Positions 9,780-29,256 of a stretch of 64,000 nucleotides of DNA are shown here, piece by piece (position 1 is the first letter of the stretch; every line of letters begins with the position of its first letter). The DNA lies in NCBI GenBank assembly GCA_905182905.1, contig CAJJDH010000013.1:62001-126000 (forward strand), in the 5' to 3' direction. A program made the position numbers and the translations under genes. The notes under the pieces were generated by a model. That model was not told the origin of the DNA, made no database searches, and worked only from the letters and a program-made list of their open reading frames with translations. Source of the DNA: a marine gamma proteobacterium HTCC2089 (GTDB lineage: Bacteria; Pseudomonadota; Gammaproteobacteria; Pseudomonadales; Azotimanducaceae).

Positions 9780-10655
9780 CTATGGCTTACCAATAGAATT
9801 AAACTGTGGGCCAACAGACTCGCCTGTTACCGTTGGAACTGGCGGCAATAGCATTGAGGCAGGCCATACGACAGGCAGGCCATCGCCCTGAATCAAACCT
9901 CCAACGGGAACTTTGGCACGATCCAATGGAAACGTTGGCCATGGCTTTGTGCGCTTACTTCCTGCTGCAATAAACACAACGGTAAAAACTCGTCGGGTTG
10001 CGGAAGCTGTATTTGCCGCTGCTTGATGTACGGTAAAACCGTGGTGCCAGACAATGCTGCCAGGGTTTACTGACACCCATTCCGGCGCAGCTCCGTTCAA
10101 TGCTGGGTCGGATAGAATGTCGTACGGCTCAGTACTATGAGTTATATCCACCGGCTTCAAACCGCCCGCTTTGTGAGAGCCGGGTACGTAAGCCATTGCA
10201 CCATTTGCAAAACTCACAGGGTCGAAGGGAATCCACGCGCTGACTAACTTCGCGTCCCCTACCGGCCAAAAAGTTTGGTCCTGATGCGGATCGGTTTCCC
10301 GCCCCTGAGGTTCCTTATACAGCGCTTGATCTTGCCATAAATGCAGTCCATCAACGCCGAGCAATTGAGCGCCAATGCCGGCTAAAACGGAACTACAGGA
10401 CAACTCCCTGACCACATCACTAGTCTCCCACAGCCGCATACACTGGATAAAAGACTGCTCATACGTACTTTTCTCAGCAACATCTCGAAAATCCGCTGCA
10501 GTACGTAGTTCAACCTCCGCATCTACCGCACGGGAATAACGCTCTAGGGTTGAAGAGGCAAATACATCATCTGTGACCACAAAACCTTTGCTCTGAAACT
10601 CAGCCACTACCTCTTCATTTACCGAATATGGGTATGCAATTTTTTGTTCGCTCAT
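9780..10655 (-). CDS. Phytanoyl-CoA dioxygenase (PhyH) family protein, copy 1
   Basis: A 291-residue Fe(II)/2-oxoglutarate oxygenase of the PhyH family, which hydroxylates branched acyl chains, small molecules or alkyl groups. The iron triad is H124-x-D126 in DPHQDQTFW and H210 in HHGFTVHQ, with the 2-oxoglutarate-binding Arg at 221 or 222 (SATRRVF). A GGAGAAG site five bases before the ATG at 10655 fixes the start. It is the last gene of a three-gene minus-strand operon, 63 bases after the sulfatase, and is only distantly similar to the first gene of that operon, so the two oxygenases probably act on different positions or substrates. Confidence 0.9.
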   Translation of the reverse strand: MSEQKIAYPYSVNEEVVAEFQSKGFVVTDDVFASSTLERYSRAVDAEVELRTAADFRDVAEKSTYEQSFIQCMRLWETSDVVRELSCSSVLAGIGAQLLGVDGLHLWQDQALYKEPQGRETDPHQDQTFWPVGDAKLVSAWIPFDPVSFANGAMAYVPGSHKAGGLKPVDITHSTEPYDILSDPALNGAAPEWVSVNPGSIVWHHGFTVHQAAANTASATRRVFTVVFIAAGSKRTKPWPTFPLDRAKVPVGGLIQGDGLPVVWPASMLLPPVPTVTGESVGPQFNSIGKP

Positions 10656-10718
10656 TGAACTTCTCCGCACAAATTTTTCACAGCTAGGACTAAACTTTGC
10701 CCTATCCGCAGATGTAAG

Positions 10719-12161
10719 CTACCCACTAAGTAACGACCAATCCGGCACCGACTCAGGATGACTCAGCTCACCAAAAGCATTTTTTACAACTCGCCGCTGG
10801 TCATCTAGCCAATCCTTGGCATCTTCACACGGACCCAAATGATCTTGCCGGCGCCGCTGGTGTTCAATTAGAAGAGTTCGCATTTGTATGAGCAATTCTT
10901 GGGCCGAAGGCTCAGCACTCAGATCTTTCATTTGCAGCGGATCCGCTTCAAGGTCATACAATTCTTCTTTGCCGCCTAACCACATAGCATACGTATGAGT
11001 TTTGCTACGAACGCCCCGCCATTCAGCACCATTCTTGAACCAATCAAAGTACTTAGAAAAGTTCATAATAAAGGCACTATCTGACTGTGCGTGTTGCGCA
11101 CCACCGCGCCACTGATCAGATAGGTCTTTGCCTTCGATAGAGCGAGGCGGTGTAACTCCTGCCAAGCCACAAATACTTGGAAACCAATCAACCATACTAG
11201 TCACAGTATCAATACGACTGCCGGCCTTGATAACGCCAGGAAAACGAATAATACCCGGTACATGAATAGAAGCGTCGTAGGGATTTTTCTTGGACCATGG
11301 GTTTACGCCCTGAGAGCCTCCTTGCGTGCCATGATCTGAAGCCAATACCACGATGGTATTTTCTACCAAGCCTCGCCGCTCCAAGTCGTCCAGCAATTTG
11401 CCCAACATTTCATCAACAGCCAAGATCATAGCCAGATAATGACGCATCATCACCATAGTGTTTTCAACCTGTTCGCTGGGAACATTTTCAGGCAACACTA
11501 AATCGTTAGGCAGCGCCTCGTAGTATTTTTCTGGTGCAAATTCAAACGGAGTGTAATGCGGTTGATGGGGTGACAGAAACATAAGAAATGGATCATCTAC
11601 GCAACCGTCTAAAAACTCCTGGGCATAATTAAACAGACCATCTGTTTCGTAACCCTCCCAGCGTTCATAATTCCAATCATCTTTATGCACAAAACCGTTA
11701 AAGTAGACCATATGCTGGTTATAGGCCCGCCAATATTCGAAGCCCAAACGATCACGACCTTCGGGCACCCAATCTGGGTGTTGAGGCATACGGTCAAGAG
11801 CCGGCCACAGCCCTGTATGTAAATGCCACTTACCAATCCAAGCGGTTTTATAGTTTGCATTGGCAAACGCATCAGCGATTGAAATCTCTGAGTGCCTAGT
11901 ACGGGTGGTATTAATCAAATGGCCGGTAGTCTGAGGATAACGACCAGTCACAAGCATTGCCCTAGCCGGAGTACATACCGGGCAATTTGAGATGGCGTTA
12001 TCTAAAGTTACTCCTTCACTGGCTAACCGATCGATGTTGGGCGTAGCGATCTGCTGTGCACCGTAACGCTGACTATATAGGGGTAGGGATTGAGCACGGA
12101 GTTGATCCGGAAAGAGCACCACCACATTGGGACGCCCTTGCGCCATATTATGTTCGCCCAC
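10719..12161 (-). CDS. Sulfatase (arylsulfatase family, formylglycine-dependent)
   Basis: A 480-residue type I sulfatase, hydrolysing sulfate esters. The formylglycine signature C-x-P-x-R is present as C63-TPAR, followed by AMLVTGRYPQ, so a maturing enzyme (FGE or anSME) is needed but is not encoded nearby. Metal ligands are suggested by FPDQLR at the N-terminus and ASDHGTQGG in the middle. No signal peptide is visible, so it would act in the cytoplasm unless exported otherwise; this fits degradation after import. The GTG at 12161 is preferred because GGAG lies five bases upstream; an ATG at 12146 is the alternative. It sits between two PhyH oxygenases and near two TonB-dependent receptors, pointing to a sulfated organic substrate. 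Confidence 0.92.
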   Translation of the reverse strand: MGEHNMAQGRPNVVVLFPDQLRAQSLPLYSQRYGAQQIATPNIDRLASEGVTLDNAISNCPVCTPARAMLVTGRYPQTTGHLINTTRTRHSEISIADAFANANYKTAWIGKWHLHTGLWPALDRMPQHPDWVPEGRDRLGFEYWRAYNQHMVYFNGFVHKDDWNYERWEGYETDGLFNYAQEFLDGCVDDPFLMFLSPHQPHYTPFEFAPEKYYEALPNDLVLPENVPSEQVENTMVMMRHYLAMILAVDEMLGKLLDDLERRGLVENTIVVLASDHGTQGGSQGVNPWSKKNPYDASIHVPGIIRFPGVIKAGSRIDTVTSMVDWFPSICGLAGVTPPRSIEGKDLSDQWRGGAQHAQSDSAFIMNFSKYFDWFKNGAEWRGVRSKTHTYAMWLGGKEELYDLEADPLQMKDLSAEPSAQELLIQMRTLLIEHQRRRQDHLGPCEDAKDWLDDQRRVVKNAFGELSHPESVPDWSLLSG

Positions 12162-12255
12162 TACTACTCCTTTTCCGCTACCAATACCTTCGGGACGTCA
12201 ATGCTAAAGAAATACCCCTCTTTACGAATATATATAAGACAAAACTCCGAGCAAA

Positions 12256-13134
12256 CTACTTTTTATAAGGTGTCATATCCATTTCAGGGTATCGAGCGGA
12301 TACACCAGCTACCGTTTCATCACTCCAATAGGGATCGTTTGGCGCAGGGAAACCAATGAGTTCACGCTCTTGGGGCGTCGCCTTTTCCATCCACGCCGAG
12401 AAACTGGGATATATGCCCTGTTCTGGCCATCCAATAATGCCCATCCAACGAGGCTTTGCCGGTGCGTATGAGACAAAGTGAGCAACCCGAGCCCCTTCCT
12501 CTAAAAATGCTGTGCCGCGATGAAACGTACGCATGCTATAGGCAAGGACCGACCCGGCGGACACGGTAGCTTTCACCTCATTTTCGTACAACGAAGGGCG
12601 ATCCGCTTTGGTGTGTACGGGCGGCCAAAGGATTTCATCCTTATAGTTCTGCCATGAGCACACAGCCGTGGGCGCTTCATGAGCAGCTACATCTGTGTAG
12701 TAAATTAGGAAGGCTGTTTGCCAATACGCTGGATCTTCAGGTGGATAGGCCAACGTATGGTTTACATAATCTAGGTGCATTACTTGATCGTTGTCAGCGT
12801 AATGCCCCTTACACTTATAGATCAAATCTGATTGCTCACAAAAAATATCACCACCGCCCGCCATCATAGAAGCAAAACGCCGCAACTCTGGATGCATTGT
12901 AATAGTATTCAAGTGGGTTCCCTTAAACGGAAATCTCCTAGACCTTCTGGAGACTAATGTTTCATCCCAGTTTGCAGGTTTTGGTCTTTTAGGGTCTGCG
13001 GCGTAGTCCAACCAACCGGGAATAAAGACCTCTACTTCTTCACGAGCGCCTGCTAACTCCTCTGGAGAAAGAAAATTCTCCAAAATGACAAAACCGTGAT
13101 CTTTGTAATGTTGGATCTGCTCGTCGCTTACCAT
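12256..13134 (-). CDS. Phytanoyl-CoA dioxygenase (PhyH) family protein, copy 2
   Basis: A 292-residue Fe(II)/2-oxoglutarate oxygenase. The iron ligands are H120-x-D122 in VMHLDYVNH and H205 in TFHRGTAF, with Arg216 in GARVAHF for 2-oxoglutarate. The GGGGAG site six bases upstream supports ATG 13134. It is the first gene of the PhyH-sulfatase-PhyH operon. The C-terminus RYPEMDMTPYKK closely resembles the end of the decayed PhyH gene at 36971-37601, so these two are paralogues. It probably hydroxylates a lipid-like or alkyl substrate as an early catabolic step; the substrate is not known. Confidence 0.9.
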   Translation of the reverse strand: MVSDEQIQHYKDHGFVILENFLSPEELAGAREEVEVFIPGWLDYAADPKRPKPANWDETLVSRRSRRFPFKGTHLNTITMHPELRRFASMMAGGGDIFCEQSDLIYKCKGHYADNDQVMHLDYVNHTLAYPPEDPAYWQTAFLIYYTDVAAHEAPTAVCSWQNYKDEILWPPVHTKADRPSLYENEVKATVSAGSVLAYSMRTFHRGTAFLEEGARVAHFVSYAPAKPRWMGIIGWPEQGIYPSFSAWMEKATPQERELIGFPAPNDPYWSDETVAGVSARYPEMDMTPYKK

Positions 13135-13180
13135 AATGGCTCCCCTGCCTTCGTGCACCTTGCACCGATTCGCAATGCTA

Positions 13181-13208
13181 TCTAAAACAATACTCTCTAA
13201 AACAATAC
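13181..13208. repeat. 15-bp tandem duplication upstream of the PhyH operon
   Basis: Two copies of TCTAAAACAATAC are offset by 15 bases, about 50 bp upstream of the first PhyH gene. They may lie in its promoter or leader. Confidence 0.75.
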
Positions 13209-13810
13209 TTTACGGAACATACATTAAAATATTGAACAAGACTCGAGCGCAGAGATCAATCCCATAACTTTTACGCCCCGCTAATGAGTCAGAGTTCGCT
13301 GCAACAGGCACATTTTGTTTTTTACTGGTAACGATAAACGGTTTTTCTGGAATACGTTTGAAGCGAATCGCGTTCTCGTTACAAGCGGTAGAGGCGCAGC
13401 AAAAGACCTTAGCAAAAGGGTATTCGCTACTGCGCTCGTAAACGATTTAGCTACCATTATCCTAACTAGAATTGGTCTAGAAGAAATCTACCTACCCGCA
13501 TGCAAATCGCGGGGAAAACTATAAATCCGCACACACAATGAGACGTGCAATTAGCTAGGGCTTACCGGCGACGCCAGTAAGTTAGCATTAGGTTAGGACA
13601 TTTGAATGAACGCTGAACTAAATCTGTTCGTGTTTTTCAGAGCAGTGCTGGAAGACCCAAGCAGAAATGGCCAAGAGATATCCACCTGAAATGGTCTCCA
13701 GATGCTTCGCAATGACAAGTTATCTGTCTGGCGAGTTTCGCGAGTGATACCTCTAACAGCGACTAGGTTAGGCAGCTAGCCTTAATCAAACTCTAGGTAT
13801 TCGTCAGACC
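13209..13810. other. Gene-poor region between the PhyH operon and the Thr-rich protein gene
   Basis: About 600 bases with no convincing gene. A 69-codon frame from a TTG near 13315 has no clear ribosome site and no recognisable features. A 28-codon frame from ATG 13605 has an AGGA site eight bases upstream and reads MNAELNLFVFFRAVLED at its N-terminus, faintly like the start of a LysR regulator, but stops quickly. Both are weak. Confidence 0.5.
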
Positions 13811-13843
13811 AAAAAAAAATGCCTGCGGTAGCACAGGCATTTC
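13811..13843 (-). terminator. Rho-independent terminator of the Thr-rich protein gene
   Basis: Arms AATGCCTG and CAGGCATT close on an eight-base loop. Read on the minus strand, the hairpin is followed by about ten T residues, an ideal intrinsic terminator roughly 60 bases after the stop of the upstream minus-strand gene. Confidence 0.9.
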
Positions 13844-13898
13844 GAAGATCAACTTAATGGGGCAAAAGTAAACTTGAGCCTCAAATACACTACTTGGT

Positions 13899-14306
13899 TT
13901 ATGTGCCAGTAGTAGCGGTAGTACTAGTAGTTGTCGTTGTACTCGTAGTTGAAGTGGTGCTTGGAGTCGTGGGAGTATTTGGCTCATCCACAGGAGAACT
14001 GGAATCGTTAGAGTTGTCAACCGCCACACCAATAAGTGCTGCACCAACAACACCAATAGCGACCGCCGTACCTAAACCTATACCACCTATGGCGCCTGCT
14101 CCAGCACCTGCACCTGCTCCAGCGCCACCGCCTGCTCCAGCAGAAGAGCTCGAACCGCCCTCGGCGGTCTCTGCAGCCGCGGCCACGGCCTGCTGGCTGG
14201 TGCAAGCCAAAACGACTAGCAGACAGCTCATAACGGCTCTTACTGCCCTTTGGGCATTTAAAAATGGGCTATCCACAGTGGATATCAACTTAGTCAATGT
14301 TTTCAT
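13899..14306 (-). CDS. Small exported Gly/Ala- and Thr-rich protein (YjbE/GfcA-like)
   Basis: About 135 residues. An N-terminal hydrophobic segment (SCLLVVLACTSQQAVAAAA) looks like a signal peptide or anchor. A Ser/Gly/Ala tract and a second hydrophobic stretch (IGLGTAVAIGVVGAALIGV) follow, and the protein ends in a long Thr/Ser tail (PTTPSTTSTTSTTTTTSTT). This layout resembles the small exported YjbE and GfcA proteins that precede polysaccharide-export genes in enterobacteria; no such genes follow here. Low complexity makes homology claims weak. It has its own ribosome site (GAGAG) and a strong terminator, so it is probably a real monocistronic gene. Function unknown; a cell-envelope role is likely. 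Confidence 0.65.
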   Translation of the reverse strand: MKTLTKLISTVDSPFLNAQRAVRAVMSCLLVVLACTSQQAVAAAAETAEGGSSSSAGAGGGAGAGAGAGAGAIGGIGLGTAVAIGVVGAALIGVAVDNSNDSSSPVDEPNTPTTPSTTSTTSTTTTTSTTATTGT

Positions 14307-14348
14307 CACGCTCTCTCACTTGAAATGTTCAAAATTAGGTTCCGAATT

Positions 14349-14379
14349 CTTATGCTCTTATGCTCTTATGCTCTTATGC
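14349..14379. repeat. 8-bp tandem repeat, about four copies
   Basis: The unit CTTATGCT is repeated almost perfectly about four times in a noncoding stretch, followed by degenerate ATGC-containing copies. Copy number could vary by slippage. Confidence 0.85.
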
Positions 14380-14503
14380 CCACATGCATGCTCGTATGCT
14401 TGAAAGCGCTCCCCGAAAGCCGCTGTAGTGCTAACGGCGACTTACTAAGGCTTTCTATGGGCGATTGCATCCGCTAAGTCTATTCGTCTATCTTTTCTAA
14501 CTC

Positions 14504-14546
14504 GTTTATCTTGCTTGTTTATCTTGCTTGTTTATCTTGCTTGTTT
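14504..14546. repeat. 13-bp tandem repeat, about 3.3 copies
   Basis: The unit GTTTATCTTGCTT is repeated three times perfectly and then breaks off after GTTT. The core GTTTATCTT is shared with the repeat at the left edge of the window. Confidence 0.9.
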
Positions 14547-15079
14547 GATTTTAGTCTCTATGAAGCTTTTTGAGCTTTTAAGCCTTCTATTGTTTGCGCA
14601 GTTATCCTGCAAGCGAAACCACTTTTCAGAATCTGACAAATCGCACCAACACTAAATACAAACTTGGAAGCCCCCATAAGCAAGTTGGCTTGCAACAACC
14701 GTTAGGCTTGAGCGCAATTCTCATCGCGACTGGGGCTTTTAGGAAAAGCTTTCCGCTGATCGAGCTCAAACAGAGGATAAACGGTGCAATCAAGACGTAA
14801 TGATTTTTGACTGCAGACTTGCTCAAAATTACCCTCACCCCGCCCTGCGTATGATGCGGCGACACGAAGTCGACAAAACTTTCACTTTTTACTCACTTTT
14901 CGCCCATTTCCTCCATTATTTTTACTATTTTCATCACTTTTGAGTCTATTTTGTATACTTTATGGGAACAAACTTAGGCATAATTCGCTCCGTTCCATGA
15001 ACACGAATGCCTTTGGTGTTCATGCATGGTAAATCTGCTAAAAAAAACAGCGACGGTATCGTCGTAATGGAGAAAACAA

Positions 15080-17659
15080 TTGTCTATCTTAGAAAAAATT
15101 AAGGGAAGAGGAGTGGCTTTAGCTGCCGTTCTAAACTTCACTTTGATCAGTCTATTTGCGTCAATCAGCACTTCGGCCTACGCCTTAGAACAAGCTGACC
15201 CAGACGTAATCGAAGAAGTAGTTACTATCGGCACTCGCAGTAAGCCGCGTTCTGTAACTCAATCACTTGCACCTGTAGATGTTATTTCAGGTGATGATTT
15301 CACTAACCAAGGCGGTATCGATACTAGCAACTTGCTACGTAATGTTGTGCCTTCGTTCAACGTCAACGACCAACCCATCAGTGACGCGGCAACTCTTGTT
15401 CGCCCCGCTAACCTTCGTGGTTTAGCGCCTGATCACACGTTGCTATTAGTGAATGGTCAAAGACGTCATCGCGCTGCAGTAATTACTTGGTTAGGTAACG
15501 GACTGTCTGATGGATCTCAAGGTCCGGACCTGGCAGCAATACCTTCACTCGCGTTAAGAAGTATTGAAGTACTTCGCGATGGCGCAGCGGCCCAATATGG
15601 CTCTGACGCTATTGCTGGCGTTATCAACTTTAACCTAAAGAACGCTGACTCTGGCGGTTCGTTCGAAGCTAAATATGGTAGCTACTCAGAAGGTGACGGC
15701 GATCAATATATCCTTGCTGTAAACAAAGGTTTCGCAATTGGCGGCAACGGTTTTGTCAACGTGACAGCTGAGTGGGCTGATACCGAAGCAACTGACCGTG
15801 CAGTGCAACGTGGTGATGCGGCTAGTCTTATCGCTGCTGGCTACCAAGGTGTTGGTAACCCAGCACAAGTGTGGGGTTCACCTGAAGTTGCCGATGACTA
15901 TAAAGTATGGGTAAATTTTGGCAGCAACCTTAACGACAATATCGAATTGTTCGGTACAGCTAACTATAATAGTAAAGATGTACTCGGCGGATTCTACTAC
16001 CGTAACCCTACCAACCGCGGTGGAGTTTATAGTGGTGACGGCGGAGCTACCCTGCTAATTGGCGACTTAACTCCCGGCCCTGTAGGTCAAACGAACGCTG
16101 GTTTTCCTGCGCTATCTGCGGGTGACGGTGTTAGCTGCCCAACAGTTGCGGTAAACAACTTGGTACCTGAAGCAACATCAATGGCTCTTGTAGCTGCAGA
16201 TGCTAATTGCTTTAGTTTCCAAGAACTAATCACAGGCGGTTTCACCCCTAACTTTGGCGGCGAAGTTTCAGATTCATCTTTCCTCATTGGATTGCGCGGC
16301 GAACTAGATAATGGCCTTGAGTGGAGCGTGAGCTCTTACTGGGGTATTAATAGAGCAGCATTCGTTATCAACAACACTGTAAACGCAAGTTTAGGTCCTA
16401 TCACACCTCGCAATTTTAACCCCGGTTACTATGAGCAAGGCGATCACAACCTAAACGCAGATTTCTCTTATCCTGTTTCTGACGCTATGCAGGTCAGCTT
16501 CGGTGCTGAGTTACGTAAAGAGGAATTCACGATTGGTGCGGGGCAAAGAGAATCCTATATCGACGGCGGACTTGGTACACAGGGCTTTAGCACCTCAACC
16601 AATGGCTTCCCTGGATTTTCTCCTGCTATCTCAGGCAGCTGGGAACGCGAAAACTATTCGGCTTACGTAGATGTTGAATACTATGCAAGCGAGCAACTGC
16701 TTATTGGCGCAGCTCTACGTTTCGAAGACTTTGATGACTTCGGTACAACTACCAACTATAAGTTGGGCGCAAACTACGCAGTTAACGATACAATGGGATA
16801 TCGCGCGACTATCAGCACAGGCTTTAAAGCGCCTACTCCTGGTCAGTCAAACGCATCGAACATCTCAACTCAGATCATCGGTGGCGTCCTGACTAACCAA
16901 GGTGTTATTCCACCGAATAGCCCAGCGGCACTATTGCGTGGCAGTTCGGTACTTGATCCTGAAGAGTCAACTAACTTCACCATTGGTGCGTACATGAATG
17001 TTGGCGCTTTTGACATAACAGTCGACTACTTTGATATCAATGTAGAAGATCGTCTAAGCCTTTCAAATGACTTCTCGCTGACAGCAGCAGACCTAGTTAC
17101 TTTGGCTAACCAAGGTATCGACGCTTCTGATATCTCTCAATTTCGTTTCTTCACTAACCAATTCGAAACCGATACATCGGGTATTGACTTAGTTGTGACA
17201 ACAGAAACTGAATGGTTAAACGGCGTTACCACATGGAACTTAGCGTACAATGTAACAACTACTGAAGTTGGCGACAGAGACCCTGCACTCTTCGGTAACA
17301 ACAGAGTTCTTTTGGTTCAAGATGGCACGCCATCTACACGCTGGAACCTTACTGCAAATCACAACATTGCTCAGTGGAGATTCCTAGCTCGCGTGAACTA
17401 CTATGGCGAGTACTATGACAACGAAGCTGGTGGTTATTTTGATGATGCATTGCTCCTCGACCTAGAGGCTGCATATAGCGTTAGCGAAGATATGACTATC
17501 ACCTTCGGTGGCCGCAATGTTAGTGACGAGCAAGGCTGCTCAACTTCTAGCTGTGGTACAACACCTCCTGGTGCGTTGGGACTCCCATACAGTCAGTTCA
17601 CACCGTTTGGTTTTAACGGTGCGTTCTACTATGGACGTTTTACTTATAACTTTAAGTAA
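15080..17659 (+). CDS. TonB-dependent receptor, copy 1
   Basis: An 859-residue outer-membrane receptor that imports a bulky ligand using TonB energy. A signal peptide ends at about SAYA (residue 34). The plug domain follows (about 45-165), with the TonB-box candidate EEVVTIGTR, LRGLAPDHTLLLVNGQRRHR and VEVLRDG-like SIEVLRDGAAAQYGSDAIAGV. The rest is a 22-strand beta-barrel ending in FYYGRFTYNFK. A Cys pair sits in EQGCSTSSCG near the end. The start is a TTG preceded by GGAG with seven bases between. It is closely paralogous to the next gene. Its codons favour GGT, CGT and GAC-type choices more than the neighbours, which suggests strong expression. The ligand is unknown; an organic substrate of the surrounding catabolic genes is more likely than iron, since no Fur box is evident. 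Confidence 0.94.
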   Translation: MSILEKIKGRGVALAAVLNFTLISLFASISTSAYALEQADPDVIEEVVTIGTRSKPRSVTQSLAPVDVISGDDFTNQGGIDTSNLLRNVVPSFNVNDQPISDAATLVRPANLRGLAPDHTLLLVNGQRRHRAAVITWLGNGLSDGSQGPDLAAIPSLALRSIEVLRDGAAAQYGSDAIAGVINFNLKNADSGGSFEAKYGSYSEGDGDQYILAVNKGFAIGGNGFVNVTAEWADTEATDRAVQRGDAASLIAAGYQGVGNPAQVWGSPEVADDYKVWVNFGSNLNDNIELFGTANYNSKDVLGGFYYRNPTNRGGVYSGDGGATLLIGDLTPGPVGQTNAGFPALSAGDGVSCPTVAVNNLVPEATSMALVAADANCFSFQELITGGFTPNFGGEVSDSSFLIGLRGELDNGLEWSVSSYWGINRAAFVINNTVNASLGPITPRNFNPGYYEQGDHNLNADFSYPVSDAMQVSFGAELRKEEFTIGAGQRESYIDGGLGTQGFSTSTNGFPGFSPAISGSWERENYSAYVDVEYYASEQLLIGAALRFEDFDDFGTTTNYKLGANYAVNDTMGYRATISTGFKAPTPGQSNASNISTQIIGGVLTNQGVIPPNSPAALLRGSSVLDPEESTNFTIGAYMNVGAFDITVDYFDINVEDRLSLSNDFSLTAADLVTLANQGIDASDISQFRFFTNQFETDTSGIDLVVTTETEWLNGVTTWNLAYNVTTTEVGDRDPALFGNNRVLLVQDGTPSTRWNLTANHNIAQWRFLARVNYYGEYYDNEAGGYFDDALLLDLEAAYSVSEDMTITFGGRNVSDEQGCSTSSCGTTPPGALGLPYSQFTPFGFNGAFYYGRFTYNFK

Positions 17660-17676
17660 ACTGCCCTAGCGTCTTG

Positions 17677-17700
17677 TTGGGCCCTGAATTCAGGGCCTAA
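17677..17700 (+). terminator. Hairpin after TonB-dependent receptor 1
   Basis: A perfect 18-bp palindrome, GGCCCTGAATTCAGGGCC (17680-17697), extended by three further pairs, begins 17 bases after the stop codon. It is followed by CATTTCTTCT, so it probably attenuates or ends transcription between the two receptor genes. Confidence 0.65.
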
Positions 17701-18034
17701 CATTTCTTCTCAACGTCTTTCCCTCCCGCTGTAGCCCAACTAAACACCAGATATCCACAACCTTGGTTTCAACCAGACACCTGCCTTTTAGCATAATAGC
17801 CCCTACATACCACCAACCGCATAAATGCCCCTTCCACGAAGGCTATAACAGTTATCCACTTTTCACTTTTTCCCACCTTTTATTCCATTTTGTGAACCAT
17901 TAGTCCGTTGTATCTAGGCATTTTTCGTAATCTGTTTAAGTTGCGCCTGTTAACTATTTAGTTGCATTCGACTGGATAGCCTACGTGACCAACAAACTAA
18001 CTTGGCGCCAAGTGGCGCATGGAGATCGACTTCA
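17701..18034. other. Intergenic region upstream of TonB-dependent receptor 2
   Basis: No gene is seen. It contains a pyrimidine-rich block with CACTTTTCACTTTTTCCC, similar to the DNA before receptor 1. A separate promoter for receptor 2 is likely given the hairpin just upstream. Confidence 0.4.
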
Positions 18035-20611
18035 ATGTCAAAACTATTAAACATCTACCTGTGGCGTAGAAGCATTGTGAGTGTTTCAGTTACAGCTCTG
18101 TCTTTACTTGGATTATCTACACAACCTGCCCTCGCACTGGAACAAGCAGATCCAGAGATTATCGAAGAAGTTGTGACTATTGGCACGAGGGGTAAGCCAA
18201 GATCAGTAGCGCAATCGCTTGCACCAGTAGACGTCATTTCCGGTGACGACTTTGTTAACCAAGGTGGTATAGATACAAGCGACCTACTGCGCAACATAGT
18301 GCCCTCATTTAATATCAATGATCAACCAATTAGTGACGCAGCGACACTAGTACGCCCAGCGAATCTAAGAGGTTTAGCACCTGACCACACTCTTGTATTA
18401 GTCAACGGTCAGCGACGCCACAGATCTGGCGTTATTACTTGGCTAGGCAATGGCGTATCAACCGGCTCACAAGGGCCAGACATCTCTGCCATCCCTTCCT
18501 TAGCACTACGTACCGTCGAGGTACTACGTGATGGTGCAGCAGCGCAATATGGTTCCGACGCTATTGCCGGTGTCATTAACTTCAATTTAAAGAACGACAA
18601 TAGTGGCGGCTCTTTCGAAGCAAAATATGGGGTCTATCAAGAAGGCGACGGTGATCAGTACAGTTACGCGTTCAATAAAGGCCTACCTATAGGCGACTTT
18701 GGCTTTGCCAACGTTACCTTTGAATGGGCAGATACTGACGCGACAAGTCGTTCAGTGCAAAGAGCTGACGCTGCAGCACTAGCAAATGCTGGTTATCAGG
18801 GCGTTAGAAATCCAGCGCAAATTTGGGGCACCCCTGAAGCCGGTGACGATTATAAAGCTTGGGTCAATTTTGGTGCTGACTTCGACGGTGGTATTGAGCT
18901 CTTTGGTACAGCCAATCACAATAACAAAGATATTCTTGGCGGCTTCTACTACCGCAATCCAACCAATCGCGCTGGTGTATATAGTGCCGATGGCGGCGCC
19001 ACTCTTCTGGTTGGCGACCTTACACCCGGCCCATTAGGACAGGACAATTCAGCATTTCCTATACTATCTACCGGTGATGGCATCAGTTGTCCGACTGTAG
19101 CTATAACAGGCCTGATACCAGACCCCGCTGCACTCGCACAAATAACCGCCGACCCAAATTGCTTTAACTTTCAGGAAACTATCCCCAATGGTTTTACCCC
19201 AAACTTTGGCGGTGAAATTACAGATTCTTCATTTCTTATCGGTCTTCGCGGTGAGCTAGGAAATGGCCTCAACTGGAGTGTCAGCACTTATTGGGGCAAT
19301 AACGAAGCGGATTTCGTGATCAATAATACAGTGAATGCCAGCTTAGGGGCGTCAACACCTAGGAACTTCGATCCAGGTTCATACGAACAGGAAGACCTTA
19401 ACTTCAACGCAGACTTTTCCTACGAATTCTCCACCCAACTACAGCTAAGTTTCGGTGCAGAATATCGAAAAGAGGAATTCACTATTGGGGCCGGTCAAAG
19501 CGAATCTTATATTGATGGCGGCTTAGGTAGTCAAGGTTTCAGCACCTCGACCAATGGTTTTCCCGGTTTTTCTCCGCAAATTTCAGGCAGTTTTGATCGC
19601 AGCAATTACGCACTTTACGCTGACTTGGAGTATCTACCCAACGAAGACTTACTAATTGGTGGCGCAATAAGATACGAGGATTTCGAAGATTTTGGTACAA
19701 CTACCAACTTTAAGCTGGGTGCAAATTATTCACTCGAAGAAGGCATAGGCTTTCGCGCAACCGTAAGTACCGGCTTCAAAGCCCCGACTCCAGGCCAGTC
19801 AAATACATCAAACATATCTACGCAGTTCACTAACGGTATGTTAACCAACCAAGGTGTTGTCCCATCAATCAGCCCTGCAGCCCGCCTGCGTGGCGGCAGC
19901 GAGTTACAGCCCGAAGAATCTACCAACTACACATTGGGCGCCTACGCGAGTCTTGGCGCACTCGATGTAACCATGGATTATTTCTTCATAAATGTTGACG
20001 ACCGACTTAACCTTTCCAGCAACTTCACCTTGACGGCCGCTGACTTAGCAACACTGCTGAATCAAGGTATAGACGCTTCAGATATTTCACAGTTCCGCTT
20101 CTTCACTAACCAGTTTGAAACAGATACCTCTGGAATAGATGTTGTCGTTTCTACGGACACACAATGGCTTAACGGTGTAACGACTTGGCAATTGGCCTAT
20201 AACTTGACCACCACTGAGGTTGTCGACAGAGATCCCGCCTTATTCAACAACGGCCGTGTGCGCCTGATTCAAGACGGTGTGCCCGGAACGCGTTGGAATT
20301 TCACTGCTAATCATAACTTTGAGCAATGGCGAATTCTTGGACGCATCAATTACTACGGTGATTTTTATGACAATGAAGCCGGCGGCTATTTTGATGATGC
20401 CATCATCATTGACTTAGAAGCAGCGTACAACTTTAACGAGCAAATGACCTTCACTGTAGGCGGACGCAACGTATCCGACGAGCAAGGATGCTCTACTGCA
20501 AGTTGTGGTAACACCCCGCCAGATGCGTTGGGACTACCTTATAGCCAGTTCTCGCCTTTCGGCTTTAACGGTGCATTCTATTACGGACGCTTTACTTACG
20601 TTTTAGAATAA
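18035..20611 (+). CDS. TonB-dependent receptor, copy 2
   Basis: An 858-residue outer-membrane receptor, tandem paralogue of the preceding gene. A signal peptide (YLWRRSIVSVSVTALSLLGL) ends near PALA, then EQADPEIIEEVVTIGTRGK begins the plug. The first 85 mature residues differ from copy 1 at only about nine positions, and the barrel stays alignable to the final FYYGRFTYVLE. The ATG at 18035 (MSKLLNIY) has GGAG ten bases upstream; eleven extra codons could be read before it but give no signal-peptide benefit. Codon choice is less biased than in copy 1. The two receptors probably import the same or similar ligands under different conditions. A strong terminator follows. Confidence 0.94.
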   Translation: MSKLLNIYLWRRSIVSVSVTALSLLGLSTQPALALEQADPEIIEEVVTIGTRGKPRSVAQSLAPVDVISGDDFVNQGGIDTSDLLRNIVPSFNINDQPISDAATLVRPANLRGLAPDHTLVLVNGQRRHRSGVITWLGNGVSTGSQGPDISAIPSLALRTVEVLRDGAAAQYGSDAIAGVINFNLKNDNSGGSFEAKYGVYQEGDGDQYSYAFNKGLPIGDFGFANVTFEWADTDATSRSVQRADAAALANAGYQGVRNPAQIWGTPEAGDDYKAWVNFGADFDGGIELFGTANHNNKDILGGFYYRNPTNRAGVYSADGGATLLVGDLTPGPLGQDNSAFPILSTGDGISCPTVAITGLIPDPAALAQITADPNCFNFQETIPNGFTPNFGGEITDSSFLIGLRGELGNGLNWSVSTYWGNNEADFVINNTVNASLGASTPRNFDPGSYEQEDLNFNADFSYEFSTQLQLSFGAEYRKEEFTIGAGQSESYIDGGLGSQGFSTSTNGFPGFSPQISGSFDRSNYALYADLEYLPNEDLLIGGAIRYEDFEDFGTTTNFKLGANYSLEEGIGFRATVSTGFKAPTPGQSNTSNISTQFTNGMLTNQGVVPSISPAARLRGGSELQPEESTNYTLGAYASLGALDVTMDYFFINVDDRLNLSSNFTLTAADLATLLNQGIDASDISQFRFFTNQFETDTSGIDVVVSTDTQWLNGVTTWQLAYNLTTTEVVDRDPALFNNGRVRLIQDGVPGTRWNFTANHNFEQWRILGRINYYGDFYDNEAGGYFDDAIIIDLEAAYNFNEQMTFTVGGRNVSDEQGCSTASCGNTPPDALGLPYSQFSPFGFNGAFYYGRFTYVLE

Positions 20612-20685
20612 GCGGTCTATTTGAACGCGTAACTTAGGTTATTTGCAATCTAGGTTGCACGTTCCAACTTGATAGAGCGATATAC

Positions 20686-20714
20686 AAAAATGCCCTGTTT
20701 ACAGGGCATTTTTT
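20686..20714 (+). terminator. Bidirectional intrinsic terminator
   Basis: AAAAATGCCCTG and CAGGGCATTTTTTT form a stem with a TTTA loop and T-runs on both strands. It can end both the plus-strand receptor gene and the converging minus-strand aldolase operon. Confidence 0.92.
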
Positions 20715-20813
20715 TGCCTGAATTTTTTGCCTACCAGCTCTTGCAGAACTTTCAATATTTCCAAGCAGAGAGGCCTTTTCTATCGGTCCTCCAGCAAGGG
20801 ATCAACAACCCTC

Positions 20814-21584
20814 TCACATGCGATAAGAGTCATCTTGCTTATCCAGCATTCTGAGCAACGCAGGCCACGCTAATCGTGACGAACGGCTTGGTTTATTCAG
20901 CTTTACGCGGCCATAGTCTCGAAGCATCTTGGCCGCACTTTCTTTGGTATGGTGCAAATCAGCACCGCTAGCCATTGCATCTACTTGTACCTTGCAGGCG
21001 TTCTCCAAAATATACATCTGATAAAACGCTTCAGCGACTGTAGAGGCGCAAGTGAGTAAGCCATGGTTATGCATAATCATTGCATGCTTTTCACCAATAT
21101 CTCGGCCCAACCGCTCACACTCATCTTCCGCACCTACGGCAATGTCGTAGTCGTGATAACAAAGATTATCCATTACCTCACTGGCCTGCTGAGTCAGTGG
21201 TAACAACCCACACTGCATACACGATACCGTCATACCTGCCCGCGTGTGGCTATGTAAAACTGCATTCACATCGGGGCGAGCCATCAATATTGCGGTGTGA
21301 ATAGCGTGACCGGCATCGTTGTACTTATAATCACCGCTTATTACATTGCCTTGAAAATCCACCTTCAGAAGCGATGAAGCGGTAATCTCCTCGAACATGA
21401 GTCCATAAGGGTTAATAAGGTACTGATCATCAACTCCTGGTACCCGAGCTGACAGGTGAGTAAATATCAGGTCTGTCCAACCGTACTTTACAAACAATCG
21501 GTAACAGGCAGCTAAATCTGTCCTGACCTGCCATTCCTCTTCACTGATACCTGCAATTGGTGTTATTTGCTCAGCCACTGACAT
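20814..21584 (-). CDS. Class II aldolase/adducin family protein
   Basis: About 256 residues. The zinc ligands of class II aldolases are visible: His-x-His in VLHSHTRAG and a third His in MIMHNHGLL. The acidic residue region is FEEITASSLLKVD. Such enzymes cleave or epimerise phosphorylated sugars, though a large bacterial subgroup acts on unknown hydroxy-acids or aldehydes. The ATG at 21584 lies almost against the GGGGAG site; the in-frame GTG five codons earlier in the listing of alternatives (VAEQITPIAG start, 21578) has better spacing, so the true start is uncertain. It is co-transcribed after an enoyl-CoA hydratase-family gene (51 bases between), so a retro-aldol step on a hydroxyacyl or keto substrate is plausible. 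Confidence 0.85.
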   Translation of the reverse strand: MSVAEQITPIAGISEEEWQVRTDLAACYRLFVKYGWTDLIFTHLSARVPGVDDQYLINPYGLMFEEITASSLLKVDFQGNVISGDYKYNDAGHAIHTAILMARPDVNAVLHSHTRAGMTVSCMQCGLLPLTQQASEVMDNLCYHDYDIAVGAEDECERLGRDIGEKHAMIMHNHGLLTCASTVAEAFYQMYILENACKVQVDAMASGADLHHTKESAAKMLRDYGRVKLNKPSRSSRLAWPALLRMLDKQDDSYRM

Positions 21585-21635
21585 TCTCCCCACAAATCAA
21601 AATTAGTTACCAAACTCGCTCACAACCGTAAACGC

Positions 21636-22358
21636 CTAATGACTGTACAAATGCGCATTTCTTAACATATAGGCAGGACCATGAACTTCGTTTATCGCAG
21701 AATTTTCGCCGTACAAACGTTCTTTTTGGCCGCCGAAGTTCTCGCGATTTGCACCAAGGGGCGCTAACTCAGCAGCCCGTTGTTGTGCTAATTCAAGCAA
21801 CCCTTCAGCAGGCGCCACTGCTTCAACCAAACCCGCCTGCAATGCGTGAGGACCGGCCCAGCGGTGGGCTAATTGCACAGTCTTGTGAAATACGTGGCGC
21901 GGCATTTTGTGCCGAAATAGCGCCAGCTCCGGGCTTGGAATGGACATACCAATTTGTATTTCGTTAGCGCACATAAAACCGCGATCTTCTCGCATAACAC
22001 GAACGTCATGACACATAGCTGCCATAAACCCCGCGCCAAATGCATGACCATTAACAGCACATAGTGTAGGTATCGGCATGGTCATAAAGCGGGCCATCAA
22101 CGTCATAAATTCAGGACCAAAGGCTTTTCTATCTCCAGCAGCAGGAAAACCATCAGGGTTTTGTACCCAATCTAAATCTAACCCATTAGAGAAGAACTTT
22201 TCACTAGCAGAGGCAGTAACAAGTGCGGCGGGACCACTCGATGCTTCTACTTCGTCCAAGACCTCTGCTATCGCGCGAACAAAAGTAGTATTCCAGCGGT
22301 TTTCCCCAGCATTTAGGGTCATGGTAAACACATCACCGTTTTTCTCTAAATCAATCAT
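21636..22358 (-). CDS. Enoyl-CoA hydratase/isomerase family protein
   Basis: A 240-residue crotonase-fold protein. The oxyanion-hole segments are SEKFFSNGLDLDW and NGHAFGAGFMAAMCHDVRVM. The region NEIQIGMSIPSPELALFRHK and the lack of the two hydratase glutamates suggest it is closer to the delta3,delta2-enoyl-CoA isomerase type than to a classical hydratase. The GGGGAAAAG site immediately precedes the ATG. It heads a minus-strand pair with the class II aldolase, and is divergent from the acyl-CoA synthetase gene across 187 bp. It probably isomerises unsaturated acyl-CoA intermediates in the same pathway. Confidence 0.87.
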   Translation of the reverse strand: MIDLEKNGDVFTMTLNAGENRWNTTFVRAIAEVLDEVEASSGPAALVTASASEKFFSNGLDLDWVQNPDGFPAAGDRKAFGPEFMTLMARFMTMPIPTLCAVNGHAFGAGFMAAMCHDVRVMREDRGFMCANEIQIGMSIPSPELALFRHKMPRHVFHKTVQLAHRWAGPHALQAGLVEAVAPAEGLLELAQQRAAELAPLGANRENFGGQKERLYGENSAINEVHGPAYMLRNAHLYSH

Positions 22359-22431
22359 CTTTTCCCCTTTTCCGCGTATTGCTTAAATTATCAGATCAAG
22401 GATTCTGTCTGCTTTGGTTGGTGCCTTCAAG

Positions 22432-22533
22432 TTTGATTGCTCACTGCATTCCACAGCTAAAGTGATTTAGGCGTCTATTTGCCTTGAAGTAGATTGCTGC
22501 ATCTGGGCAGAATCACTGTTTGAAGCAATCAAA
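22432..22533. promoter_or_regulatory. Split inverted repeat in the divergent isomerase / acyl-CoA synthetase promoter
   Basis: TTTGATTGCT (22432-22441) is repeated in inverted orientation as AGCAATCAAA (22524-22533), 82 bases apart, with CACTG near both. One copy lies near each gene. This could be a pair of regulator sites for looping, or chance. Confidence 0.35.
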
Positions 22534-22545
22534 TAAGGACAGACT

Positions 22546-24069
22546 ATGTCGATCAAAGTTTACGATTGGGTGGCGTATCATGCGCACCAAGCCCCTTCAC
22601 GATTGGCCATAATCGATCTATTTTCTGGCCGCCAGTACACCTACGGGCAAATGCAAGAACGCACTGCAAAACTCGCTAATGGTTTAAGGAGCCAATACGC
22701 CATCACCAAGGGCGACAGAGTCGCGGCGCTGACTAACAACACCTCGGATTGCTTAGAGTTGGAATTTGCGTGCATGAAGCTAGGTGCTATTTACGTGCCA
22801 TTGAATTGGCGCCTGAGCGTTCCTGAGCTAGAGTATATTGTCGGTGATTGCGCGCCCAAGGTACTCGTACACGAGGACGTATTCAATGATGAAGCAGACG
22901 CATTAAAAGCTTCCGGCTGTGTCAGCAAGTTACTTGACTTGAGAGCAGACGGCCACGCTTCTGGCTATGAATCTCTAATAGATGCAGCGGGTACAGACAA
23001 CCCAGAAGTTGACCTAAATCACGATGACCTCTGGGTCATTATGTATACCTCTGGCACAACGGGTAATCCTAAGGGTGCCATGATCACTTACGGCATGACC
23101 TTTTGGAATGTCATTAATGCCCTCACACCGCACCGAGTTTCTGAGGATATGGTTAACCTTGTGGTACTGCCTCTTTTCCATACAGGCGGCCTTAACTGTT
23201 ATGCCAATCCAGCAGTACATATGGGTGGGACTAATATTATTGTGCGCAGTTTTGACCCCGGTGAATGTCTAAAATTATTATCCGACCCCAACTATGGCGT
23301 AACACATATGCTGGCGGTACCCACCAACTATCTATTCATGAGTCAGCACCCGACATTTGAGCAAAGTGACCTAAGCCATGTAAAAACCTTTGGCATCGGC
23401 GGCGCACCAACCCCCAAGGAAATGATCAACACTTACGCCAAACGCGACATTGGCCTACAACAGGTCTTTGGAATGACCGAAACCAGCCCTTTGGTGTCCG
23501 CATTAACTGCGGAAAATGCTATGCAAAAAATCGGCTCGGCAGGTCTGCCAGTACTACACAACCAAGTGAAAATAATGACCGAAAACGGCGAGCCTATAAG
23601 CACGCCAGAAACCGTTGGTGAACTATGGGTAAAAGGCCCTAATATCACTCCCGGCTATTGGAACAAGCCTGAGGTTAATGCAACGGCATTCACTGATGGC
23701 TGGCTGCACACTGGCGACGCAGCCTATTTAGATGCGGAAGGGTTTATCTACATAGTCGACAGATGGAAGGACATGTATATTTCCGGCGGCGAAAATGTCT
23801 ATCCAGCGGAAATAGAAAATGTCATCTACCAGTTGCCACAGGTGGGTGAAGTGGCAATTATAGGGGTGTCAGATGATCGTTGGGGGGAAGTCGGCCAAGC
23901 AATAATAGTCATCAAACCTGAACAAACTTTAGATGAACAAACTGTTCTCAAACACTGCTCGGATAAACTGGCAAAATTCAAACAGCCTCAGTCCGTAAGA
24001 TTTATTGATGAAATCCCGCATAACGCTACGGGCAAGGTGCTGAAAAGAGAGCTTAGGCTGCAATCATAA
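22546..24069 (+). CDS. Fatty-acyl-CoA synthetase / AMP-dependent ligase
   Basis: A 507-residue ANL-superfamily ligase that activates a carboxylic acid with ATP and CoA. The P-loop YTSGTTGNPKG is near 167, FGMTETSPL is the A5 motif, GWLHTGDAAYLDAEGFIYIVDRWKDM carries the adenylate-binding Asp and hinge (read in pieces), and the catalytic Lys is in HNATGKVLKREL at the C-terminus. AAGGA lies six bases before the ATG. It begins a plus-strand run with GST and aminotransferase, divergent from the isomerase-aldolase pair. It would feed the acid into beta-oxidation-type steps. Medium- or long-chain specificity cannot be assigned. Confidence 0.93.
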   Translation: MSIKVYDWVAYHAHQAPSRLAIIDLFSGRQYTYGQMQERTAKLANGLRSQYAITKGDRVAALTNNTSDCLELEFACMKLGAIYVPLNWRLSVPELEYIVGDCAPKVLVHEDVFNDEADALKASGCVSKLLDLRADGHASGYESLIDAAGTDNPEVDLNHDDLWVIMYTSGTTGNPKGAMITYGMTFWNVINALTPHRVSEDMVNLVVLPLFHTGGLNCYANPAVHMGGTNIIVRSFDPGECLKLLSDPNYGVTHMLAVPTNYLFMSQHPTFEQSDLSHVKTFGIGGAPTPKEMINTYAKRDIGLQQVFGMTETSPLVSALTAENAMQKIGSAGLPVLHNQVKIMTENGEPISTPETVGELWVKGPNITPGYWNKPEVNATAFTDGWLHTGDAAYLDAEGFIYIVDRWKDMYISGGENVYPAEIENVIYQLPQVGEVAIIGVSDDRWGEVGQAIIVIKPEQTLDEQTVLKHCSDKLAKFKQPQSVRFIDEIPHNATGKVLKRELRLQS

Positions 24070-24155
24070 AATCACTCACAAACTGTTTTGGGTTGTTCAC
24101 TAAAGCACATAACCCAAAACCAAATAAGAATAATGAAGATCGTTAGGAGCTTTCT

Positions 24156-24767
24156 ATGATACGTTTTTACCACGCCCCGAGGACACGAGGCATAAGACCC
24201 ATTTGGCTTTGCGAAGAACTAGGCATTGACTACGAAGTAGAGATGATTGACTTCACACAAGAGTTTAGAGCAACACCACAATGGCGCAAGATAAGCCCGT
24301 TAGGAAAAGTGCCAGTAATGGTCGACACGGCAAATGACTTACTCATGTATGAGTCCTGCGCAATGGTTCAATACCTTCTTGACCGCTATGGCAACGGTCA
24401 ATTACAGCCTCAAGCGGGTACTCCAGAGCAAGCGATTTATCAGCAGTGGAATTGGTTTGCCGAATCTACCTTTGCCCGTCCATTAGGCGAAGTAGTCAAT
24501 CACAGTCGCGAGTTCCCAGGCGAAAAAAATATCCCAGCAGTCGTCGCTGAAATGCTCAATCGCGGCGAGCAGTGCGCTATTGCAGTCGGCGACGCTATCG
24601 GTGATAACAGTTTCATATTGGGGGACGATTTCAGCGCCGCTGACATTAATCTGGGCTATACAATAATGCTCGCAGAACACTTCTTACCTAACGGCTTACC
24701 CGAGCACCTTAAATCTTATTGGGAGCGACTATCTGCGCGCCCAGCTTTTATCAAAGCCACCAGCTAA
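24156..24767 (+). CDS. Glutathione S-transferase family protein
   Basis: A 203-residue GST. The thioredoxin-like N-terminal domain (MIRFYHAPRTRGIRPIWL, KISPLGKVPVMV, and the gamma-Glu-binding YESCAMVQYL) is followed by the all-helical C-terminal domain containing FILGDDFSAADINLGY, a typical N-capping box. An AGGAG site precedes the ATG. It sits 86 bases after the acyl-CoA synthetase and 28 before the aminotransferase, so it is probably part of their transcript. It may conjugate, isomerise or reduce a pathway intermediate; a detoxification role is equally possible. Confidence 0.9.
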   Translation: MIRFYHAPRTRGIRPIWLCEELGIDYEVEMIDFTQEFRATPQWRKISPLGKVPVMVDTANDLLMYESCAMVQYLLDRYGNGQLQPQAGTPEQAIYQQWNWFAESTFARPLGEVVNHSREFPGEKNIPAVVAEMLNRGEQCAIAVGDAIGDNSFILGDDFSAADINLGYTIMLAEHFLPNGLPEHLKSYWERLSARPAFIKATS

Positions 24768-24795
24768 CTCGCCAAGTCGAATTGAGGTTATCGGG

Positions 24796-26139
24796 ATGAC
24801 AGCAAAACACACAGGAAAGAATTTGGGTTCAAACCGAGCCACGACTAAAGCTCACTGGATGCCGTTTACCGCCAACCGTCAATTCCATAAAGATCCACGC
24901 ATTGTCGTGGCCGCTGAAGATTGCCACTTCATTAGTGACGATGGTCGGCGCGTATTCGACTCTTTGTCAGGTCTTTGGTGTTGTGGCTACGGGCATAACC
25001 GACCTGAAATCACCGCAGCAATAACTGCGCAACTGGCCACGCTAGATTACGCACCGGCTTTTCAATACACCCACCCCGGCGCTACCACTCTAGCCGATCG
25101 CCTGACTGCTATGGCACCGGGCAACCTCGACCATGCCATCTTTACCAATTCAGGATCCGAATGCGCTGATACCGCTCTGAAACTGGCCCGAGCCTATTGG
25201 CGGCTAAAGGGCCAACCCAGCAAAACACGCTTTATCGGCAGGATGAAGGGATACCATGGTGTAAATTTCGCCGGCACAAGTCTTGGCGGCATTGGCGCTA
25301 ACCGCAAACTTTTCGGTCAACTTGGCGATGCCGACCACCTACCCCATACATTGCAACCTGAGTTTGCGTTTACCAAAGGTCAAGCTGACGAGGGTATGGA
25401 ATTAGCGAATCATCTAGAGCAGCTGATTACGCTACATGATGCTTCAAACATTGCCGCCGTCATTGTTGAACCCATGTCAGGATCCGCAGGGGTCATAGTT
25501 CCACCTAAGGGCTATCTACAACGGCTAAAAGAGATCTGCGTCGAACACGACATTTTGCTTATATTCGACGAGGTCATCACCGGCTTTGCGCGCACTGGCG
25601 AGCGCTTCGGTGCGGATACGTTTGCCGTCACACCAGATATCATGACCGTTGCAAAAGGCTTAACTAATGGCGCAATCCCCATGGGCGCAGTGCTAAGTTC
25701 GGCGCCTATCTATGAGGCGTTTATGGCGATAGAGACGCCCGAACATATGGTTGAATTACCTCACGGCTATACCTATTCAGCACACCCCGTAGCCTGCGCA
25801 GCTGCGAACGCGGCCCTTAATGTGTTTGAAGAAGATCATATGGTAGAGCGCGCGAAAAAATTAGCACCTGTGTTGGAAGAAACCTTACATAGCCTGCGCG
25901 GTACTCAACACATTACAGATATTCGCAACTTCGGTATGGCTGGAGCAATTCAACTTGCGCCAAGAGACGGCGACCCTACAGTAAGACCATTTGAAGTTGG
26001 AGTACGTTGCTGGGAAATGGGTATTTACGTTAGGTGGGGGGGAGACACCCTACAATTCGGGCCGCCGTTTACCGCCTCGGAAAAAGATATTAGATCAATC
26101 GCACAGGTGGTAGGCGAGGCCATAGAACAAACACATTAA
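24796..26139 (+). CDS. Class III (omega-amino acid:pyruvate type) aminotransferase
   Basis: A 447-residue fold-type I PLP enzyme. Landmarks are SGLWCCGYGHNRPEI, the GSECADTALKLARAYWR phosphate-binding helix, the Asp in LLIFDEVITGFARTG that holds the PLP nitrogen, and the Schiff-base Lys in VAKGLTNGAIPMGAV. The N-terminal AHWMPFTANRQFHKDPR is typical of the beta-alanine:pyruvate transaminase group. A GAGG site eight bases upstream marks the start. It is last in the synthetase-GST-aminotransferase run, so the substrate of the locus may contain an omega-amino group, or the enzyme may supply or remove alanine. No terminator was identified in the 285 bases that follow. Confidence 0.93.
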   Translation: MTAKHTGKNLGSNRATTKAHWMPFTANRQFHKDPRIVVAAEDCHFISDDGRRVFDSLSGLWCCGYGHNRPEITAAITAQLATLDYAPAFQYTHPGATTLADRLTAMAPGNLDHAIFTNSGSECADTALKLARAYWRLKGQPSKTRFIGRMKGYHGVNFAGTSLGGIGANRKLFGQLGDADHLPHTLQPEFAFTKGQADEGMELANHLEQLITLHDASNIAAVIVEPMSGSAGVIVPPKGYLQRLKEICVEHDILLIFDEVITGFARTGERFGADTFAVTPDIMTVAKGLTNGAIPMGAVLSSAPIYEAFMAIETPEHMVELPHGYTYSAHPVACAAANAALNVFEEDHMVERAKKLAPVLEETLHSLRGTQHITDIRNFGMAGAIQLAPRDGDPTVRPFEVGVRCWEMGIYVRWGGDTLQFGPPFTASEKDIRSIAQVVGEAIEQTH

Positions 26140-27327: not shown

Positions 27328-27341
27328 CATTACAAGCTTAG

Positions 27342-27379
27342 CAAATGGGGTATTGTTTTCAGCGCAATGCCCCTATTTG
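27342..27379 (+). terminator. Imperfect hairpin after the methyltransferase-like gene
   Basis: CAAATGGGGTATTG pairs with CAATGCCCCTATTTG across a short loop (about 13 of 15 positions, with one bulge). There is no long T-run after it, so it is a weak terminator candidate. Confidence 0.5.
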
Positions 27380-27404
27380 TGGGGATCTTTGCACCTACTG
27401 CTAA

Positions 27405-27456
27405 TAGAACTTCTTATTAGAACTTTCTCTTGGAACTTTCTACTAGAACTACCGGA
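27405..27456. repeat. 13-bp degenerate tandem repeat upstream of modB
   Basis: TAGAACTTTCTCT-like units begin at 27405, 27418, 27431 and 27444, exactly 13 bases apart. Copies one, two and four start TAGAACT and copy three TGGAACT. The array ends nine bases before the modB start. Confidence 0.85.
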
Positions 27457-27464
27457 CATATTCT

Positions 27465-28133: not shown

Positions 28134-28134
28134 C

Positions 28135-29223: not shown

Positions 29224-29256
29224 CGCTCAGCCAATGCCACTCAGCCCAACGGGTTG

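Follow-up and report, generated by a model that had tools for sequence, protein, structure and literature searches.

What does a marine bacterium do with a sulfatase placed between two oxygenase genes, and do the genes around them share the same task? We addressed this for a stretch of 64,000 nucleotides from the marine gamma proteobacterium HTCC2089, below called the window, which corresponds to positions 62001-126000 of contig C13 in an assembly (G000) of 2.83 Mb, 125 contigs and 94% completeness. Pfam and NCBIfam scans recovered the families named by the first-pass annotation in one contiguous run: the PhyH family oxygenases PhyH1 and PhyH2 on either side of a sulfatase (SULF), two TonB-dependent receptors, and a set of aldolase, crotonase, ligase and transferase genes (Table 1). 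That annotation had joined all of them into one pathway, and this part did not hold. The reported gene families form two modules, not one conserved unit: SULF and PhyH1 (module A) travel together, and module B is a genus-level block which module A adjoins here. Module B comprises PhyH2, aldolase, crotonase, glutathione S-transferase and aminotransferase; in the window's subclade, receptors and ligase have joined it. Among the genomes examined, the full gene arrangement was seen only in the window and, spread in pieces over separate contigs, in G005 and G021.

Relatives of SULF with at least 69% identity were present in 20 of 58 relatives (own genome counted), all from the same genus, and SULF fragments were detected in G034 and G007 of that genus. 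Outside it, no match exceeded 33% identity, and 369 genomes drawn from the class gave no match at 1e-100 except in the own genome. By their record titles, the relatives are metagenome-assembled genomes (MAGs) of Pseudomonadales, Gammaproteobacteria or the K189A clade; most are apparently marine. Among 37 same-genus genomes, 20 encoded both SULF and PhyH1, two SULF only (both fragments at contig ends), one PhyH1 only (G010) and 14 neither (p 2.7e-7, kinship ignored). The 25 genomes with at least 90% completeness divided into 14 with both genes, none with SULF only, one with PhyH1 only and 10 with neither. G010 PhyH1 was considered as a broken gene and this was rejected, its reported stop being the natural end. 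On a tree of the aminotransferase (AT3), which also served as control in the mirror-tree test, SULF and PhyH1 each needed 6 steps (23 genomes); both were missing in G012, G013, G014 and G017, though the assemblies of G012 and G013 reach a completeness of just 68% and 73%. A scan of genome contigs further yielded 45 SULF loci from at most 44 genomes, several identical to MAGs with G numbers (L069 and L073, each holding part of SULF, come from the same MAG as two separate contigs). PhyH1 lay directly downstream of SULF in 29 of these loci and preceded it in L070, and L062 carried a diverged PhyH gene; the remaining 14 had no PhyH1 beside SULF, three of them ending at a contig end.

A recurring additional partner was absent from the window's locus. 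Of the 45 loci, 27 encoded a nucleoside hydrolase (PF01156) at SULF or close to it. In 24 it was a main type directly upstream (21 from locus reading plus L054, L055 and L066 by tblastn), and in three it was a non-orthologous hydrolase, with about 23-34% identity where the sequences align: two genes upstream in L065, divergent with PhyH1 in between in L070, and convergent as the next gene in L059. These three belong to MAGs titled as other lineages; all lineage names of loci (Limnohabitans, SAR324, Acidimicrobiaceae, Actinomycetes, Bacillota) are record titles, and misbinning is possible. With open reading frame starts set mechanically, hydrolase and SULF overlapped by 4 bases in 12 of 21 cases and were separated by at most 6 bases in 7 more. 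Three main-type loci were cut off within SULF; in the other 21, PhyH1 came next in 20 and the diverged PhyH in L062. L065 encoded on one strand importer genes and a LacI-like regulator (judged by eye), the hydrolase, a ribokinase-like PfkB gene (251 bits, cut-off 299.65) and SULF. Across the 37 genomes, 21 had both SULF and the hydrolase, one SULF only, eight the hydrolase only and seven neither (p 0.004). We also observed MtaA/URO-D-like genes beside SULF at L062:7037-8212 (titled SAR324) and L067:7203-8321 (titled Bacillota; below the Pfam cut-off).

G000 encodes a single PF01156 gene (C56:5825-6736; 133.1 bits, cut-off 34.2), a nucleoside hydrolase by its catalytic residues and 53-62% identical to full-length main-type hydrolases; D8, D10, D17, E158, N160 and D245 were kept in all 42 members of the hydrolase set. 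Basic residues in a hydrolase loop were considered as a mark of anionic substrates and dismissed, showing no consistent link with SULF. The neighbours on C56 encode a homocysteine S-methyltransferase, an ADP-ribosylglycohydrolase family protein, a carboxylesterase, a glutathione S-transferase (GST)-like protein and a reductase. In two relatives (L036 in G028 and L040 in G019) methyltransferase, hydrolase, SULF, PhyH1, GST-like gene, methyltransferase and reductase formed one cluster, in L040 with a carboxylesterase in between, and many relatives had the hydrolase locus without SULF-PhyH1. These versions with and without SULF suggest that module A may once have sat at the hydrolase locus or may have been inserted there. 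Contiguity of genes can mislead, as the conserved partner was found in the loci of other genomes and was absent from the window.

Because several PF01156 subfamilies recur beside SULF, a sulfated (ribo)furanoside appeared the likeliest substrate. Our best model, put forward tentatively, is the cytosolic breakdown of a small, nucleoside-like sulfated (ribo)furanoside, not a lipid, by the hydrolase, SULF and PhyH1. SULF and PhyH1 would be two cytosolic enzymes acting on one small imported sulfate ester, for whose uptake the receptors might serve. SULF would remove the sulfate, the hydrolase, whose gene on C56 adjoins the one for the homocysteine S-methyltransferase, would cleave the glycosidic bond, and PhyH1 would oxidise a C-H in the sugar or the aglycone; the order of these steps and a common regulation are likewise predictions from sequence and gene order. 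The MtaA/URO-D-like genes together with the homocysteine methyltransferase might, speculatively, hint at a methylated substrate. Arsenosugar sulfate is a 5-deoxyriboside with a sulfated glyceryl aglycone and represents one conceivable, chemically fitting marine candidate. If it were the substrate, the sulfatase, the altered pocket of the hydrolase and the neighbouring genes of glycerate-kinase-like and methyl-transfer type would share a common explanation.

A number of observations weigh against this model. In six loci (L043, L047, L049, L050, L051 and L057) SULF was beside neither partner, and in L046, L060, L067 and L072 no hydrolase lay beside it; the other loci among the 18 that have no hydrolase at SULF are L045 and L048, treated below, L029-L031 from the window's subclade and the contig ends L032, L039 and L073. 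The hydrolase of G000 sits outside the locus, the eight hydrolase-only genomes lack SULF, and G010 encodes hydrolase and PhyH1 with no SULF orthologue. The statistic for SULF and PhyH1 takes no account of kinship, and the mirror-tree test was uninformative, with SULF, PhyH1, hydrolase and the control AT3 all correlating alike (r ~0.88-0.93) and following the species tree to the same degree. SULF and PhyH1 were on different contigs in 6 of 20 carriers, and in the five of these split genomes that were examined PhyH1 was downstream of PhyH2, not SULF. The hydrolase has D and Y at two positions where RihA has N, so that ordinary ribonucleosides are not assured as substrates. Sulfatase maturation poses a further difficulty. 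All eight sulfatases of G000 carry the active-site Cys, and its 94% complete assembly contained neither a PF03781 gene with the Cys pair which we take to be the motif of the formylglycine-generating enzyme (FGE) nor a match to the anSME model. Among 10 genomes searched, the Cys pair was found only in G023 and in the close relative G016, which has an FGE-like gene, and anSME gave no match at 1e-20, leaving eight with neither canonical FGE nor anSME. FGE genes could have been lost through incomplete assemblies, yet eight of 10 genomes are many.

Two further observations of this kind suit a different substrate. In L045 (7803-8744) and L048, the position immediately upstream of SULF-PhyH1 is taken not by the hydrolase but by a glycerate-3-kinase-like gene. 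More distant SULF homologues were found on three plasmids among sulfatases, two of the three with sugar ABC importers and formylglycine-generating enzymes, and no nucleoside hydrolase was annotated around them on any of the three; the best plasmid matches to SULF, PhyH1 and hydrolase remained below 60% identity in every matching record, giving no orthologue. The kinase-like gene, the six loci with SULF alone and the sulfatase-rich, sugar-importer context would all agree with SULF and PhyH1 processing a small sulfate ester of another kind (derived from a sugar, polyol or glycerate), the hydrolase being merely co-regulated or acting on a non-nucleoside furanoside. We consider this rather unlikely, as the three non-orthologous hydrolases that turn up close to SULF in differently named MAGs argue against it.

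Module B behaved differently from module A. The order RPE65, ABC, permease, lipoprotein, aminotransferase, GST and crotonase was complete in 9 of 20 fetched stretches and partial in 9, most of which end at contig ends, and was not seen in L173 and L175. PhyH2 relatives (at least 57%) were present in 12 of 35 genomes, and those with 67-72% identity sit in module B of other genomes. In the 24 same-genus genomes used as controls for module B, SULF showed no significant association with PhyH2 (10 both, 5 SULF only, 2 PhyH2 only, 7 neither; p 0.09), with the aldolase (5, 10, 1 and 8, respectively; p 0.35) or with the aminotransferase at 70% identity or more (12, 3, 5 and 4; p 0.36). The gaps of 48 and 94 bp within PhyH2-SULF-PhyH1 are compatible with one transcript.

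The first-pass annotation had read the whole locus as one pathway in which the TonB receptors would take up a lipid (sulfated, branched or hydroxylated) that is then shortened via CoA thioesters. Contiguity and the ligase, crotonase and aldolase families would fit this proposal; the crotonase presumably lacks one of two catalytic Glu, in keeping with the label 'isomerase' given to it. The placement of PhyH1 beside PhyH2 in the five relatives also favours it and may link module A to module B, as does the order PhyH2, amidohydrolase, PhyH1, MadL, MadM in two relatives read gene by gene. Conservation of the neighbourhood, which the annotation had suggested checking, was not found for the whole set: G016 retained SULF-PhyH1, and at its locus both receptors and the acyl-CoA ligase were missing and just short PhyH2 matches were left between SULF and aldolase. 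Besides the window, only G005 and G021 had the ligase within the block. SULF did not co-occur significantly with aldolase, aminotransferase or PhyH2, human phytanoyl-CoA hydroxylase matches PhyH1 only weakly (1.6e-5), and a nucleoside hydrolase recurs as the partner of SULF; nothing we found points to a lipid, and we regard this pathway as improbable. In relatives, an amidohydrolase gene (distantly L-fuconolactonase-like) and MadL/MadM transporter genes adjoin PhyH2 and PhyH1 (L156:12837-15848).

SULF itself carries the motifs CTPAR, GKWH and SDHG, and the C-x-P-x-R site and the catalytic K, H and D residues were kept in 15 of 15 aligned sequences, which identifies it as a Cys-type S1 sulfatase. 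No hydrophobic N-terminal stretch was visible by eye, the N-terminus being judged without a signal-peptide program, and desulfation inside the cell is therefore the natural reading, as had been proposed. The nearest solved structures by profile were 2qzu, 8di0 and 6j66. PehA and phosphonate monoester hydrolases also matched distantly, which might point to a formylglycine phosphonate or phosphate ester hydrolase acting with a PhnY-like PhyH1 on an organophosphorus substrate. We consider this very unlikely, as sulfatases scored far better (8di0 1.1e-43 versus 4upk 3.7e-21) and no phosphonate gene was noticed nearby; SULF was accordingly rejected as a phosphonate hydrolase.

PhyH1 has the iron site H129-x-D131...H215 and a distal Arg of PhyH-type Fe(II)/2-oxoglutarate oxygenases, and H-x-D...H is kept in PhyH2 as well. 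The solved structure closest to PhyH1 by profile was SnoK (2.5e-28), followed by MysH (1.5e-21) and SnoN (1.8e-14). The C5'' and C4'' positions targeted by SnoK and SnoN are sugar carbons. In nogalamycin biosynthesis, SnoK acts at C5'' and SnoN at C4'', according to PMC5321127. As the nearest solved relatives are tailoring enzymes, the locus might serve biosynthetic or detoxifying tailoring instead of catabolism; the hydrolase, importer-like and ribokinase-like neighbours in L065 make this quite improbable.

The features of the locus are listed in Table 1. The TonB receptors are 75.8% identical over 839 residues, indicating a tandem duplicate; they are inserted (15080-20611) between PhyH2 and aldolase in the window's subclade. 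Receptor 1 scored 19.5 of 46.2 bits for the SusC signature, and no SusD or glycoside hydrolase was found among 17 window proteins scanned, setting the locus apart from SusC/D polysaccharide utilisation loci. The small protein reported as exported did look so, although it was best read on the minus strand; a 169-aa plus-strand open reading frame overlapping it had no Pfam or NCBIfam match. It is probably not part of a pathway. The RPE65-type gene (29257-30666) closes the conserved block in relatives.

Table 1. Genes of the locus, with positions in the window
Feature	Position	Strand	Match or remark
PhyH1, Fe(II)/2-oxoglutarate oxygenase, module A	9780..10670	-	PF05721 98.4 bits
SULF, Cys-type S1 sulfatase without visible signal peptide, module A	10719..12161	-	PF00884 169.7 bits
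PhyH2, second PhyH-family oxygenase	12256..13158	-	PhyH 36.5 bits, cut-off 22
Small low-complexity exported protein, Gly/Ala-rich, Thr tail, hydrophobic N-terminus	13899..14309	-	
TonB-dependent receptor 1	15080..17659	+	PF00593 and PF07715
TonB-dependent receptor 2	18002..20611	+	75.8% identical to receptor 1
Class II aldolase family, module B	20814..21593	-	PF00596; NF005451 313.8 bits, cut-off 207
Crotonase-fold protein, module B	21636..22358	-	PF00378
Acyl-CoA ligase (AMP-ligase)	22546..24069	+	NF004837 497.4 bits, cut-off 476
GST family, module B core	24156..24767	+	
Omega-aminotransferase, class III, AptA type, module B core	24796..26139	+	NF052567 672.7 bits, cut-off 500
Further conserved-block genes: lipoprotein without Pfam match, ABC permease and ATPase, RPE65-type gene	26425..30666		

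Literature searches combining these genes found no published gene set for the use of sulfated ribosides, and a search on 8XP6 gave no paper; further searches returned unrelated or venom papers. In PMC9038784, hydrolase and choline sulfatase are separate genes. Whether hydrolase, SULF and PhyH1 form an undescribed pathway for sulfated ribofuranosides is doubtful enough to be stated with caution. If they do, uncultivated and apparently marine bacteria would use a recurring set of genes to free sulfate and pentose from sulfated ribosides intracellularly, and the literature searched held no gene set for this part of the organic sulfur cycle.

Compared with known systems, SULF shares with S1 formylglycine sulfatases the CxPxR site, the catalytic residues and a full-length PF00884 match, and differs by the lack of a visible signal peptide and by reaching no NCBIfam equivalog cut-off. 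Choline sulfatase, a sulfatase of a small metabolite, was only a distant match (TIGR03417, 144 bits versus a cut-off of 433.45), and SULF was not assigned to it. The partner hydrolase has the PF01156 fold and catalytic residues in common with RihA, RihB and RihC, but remained below their equivalog cut-offs (best 81.6 versus 382 bits for RihC). SnoK, SnoN and MysH, the closest solved relatives of PhyH1, are biosynthetic enzymes, whereas PhyH1 is found among catabolic-looking genes.

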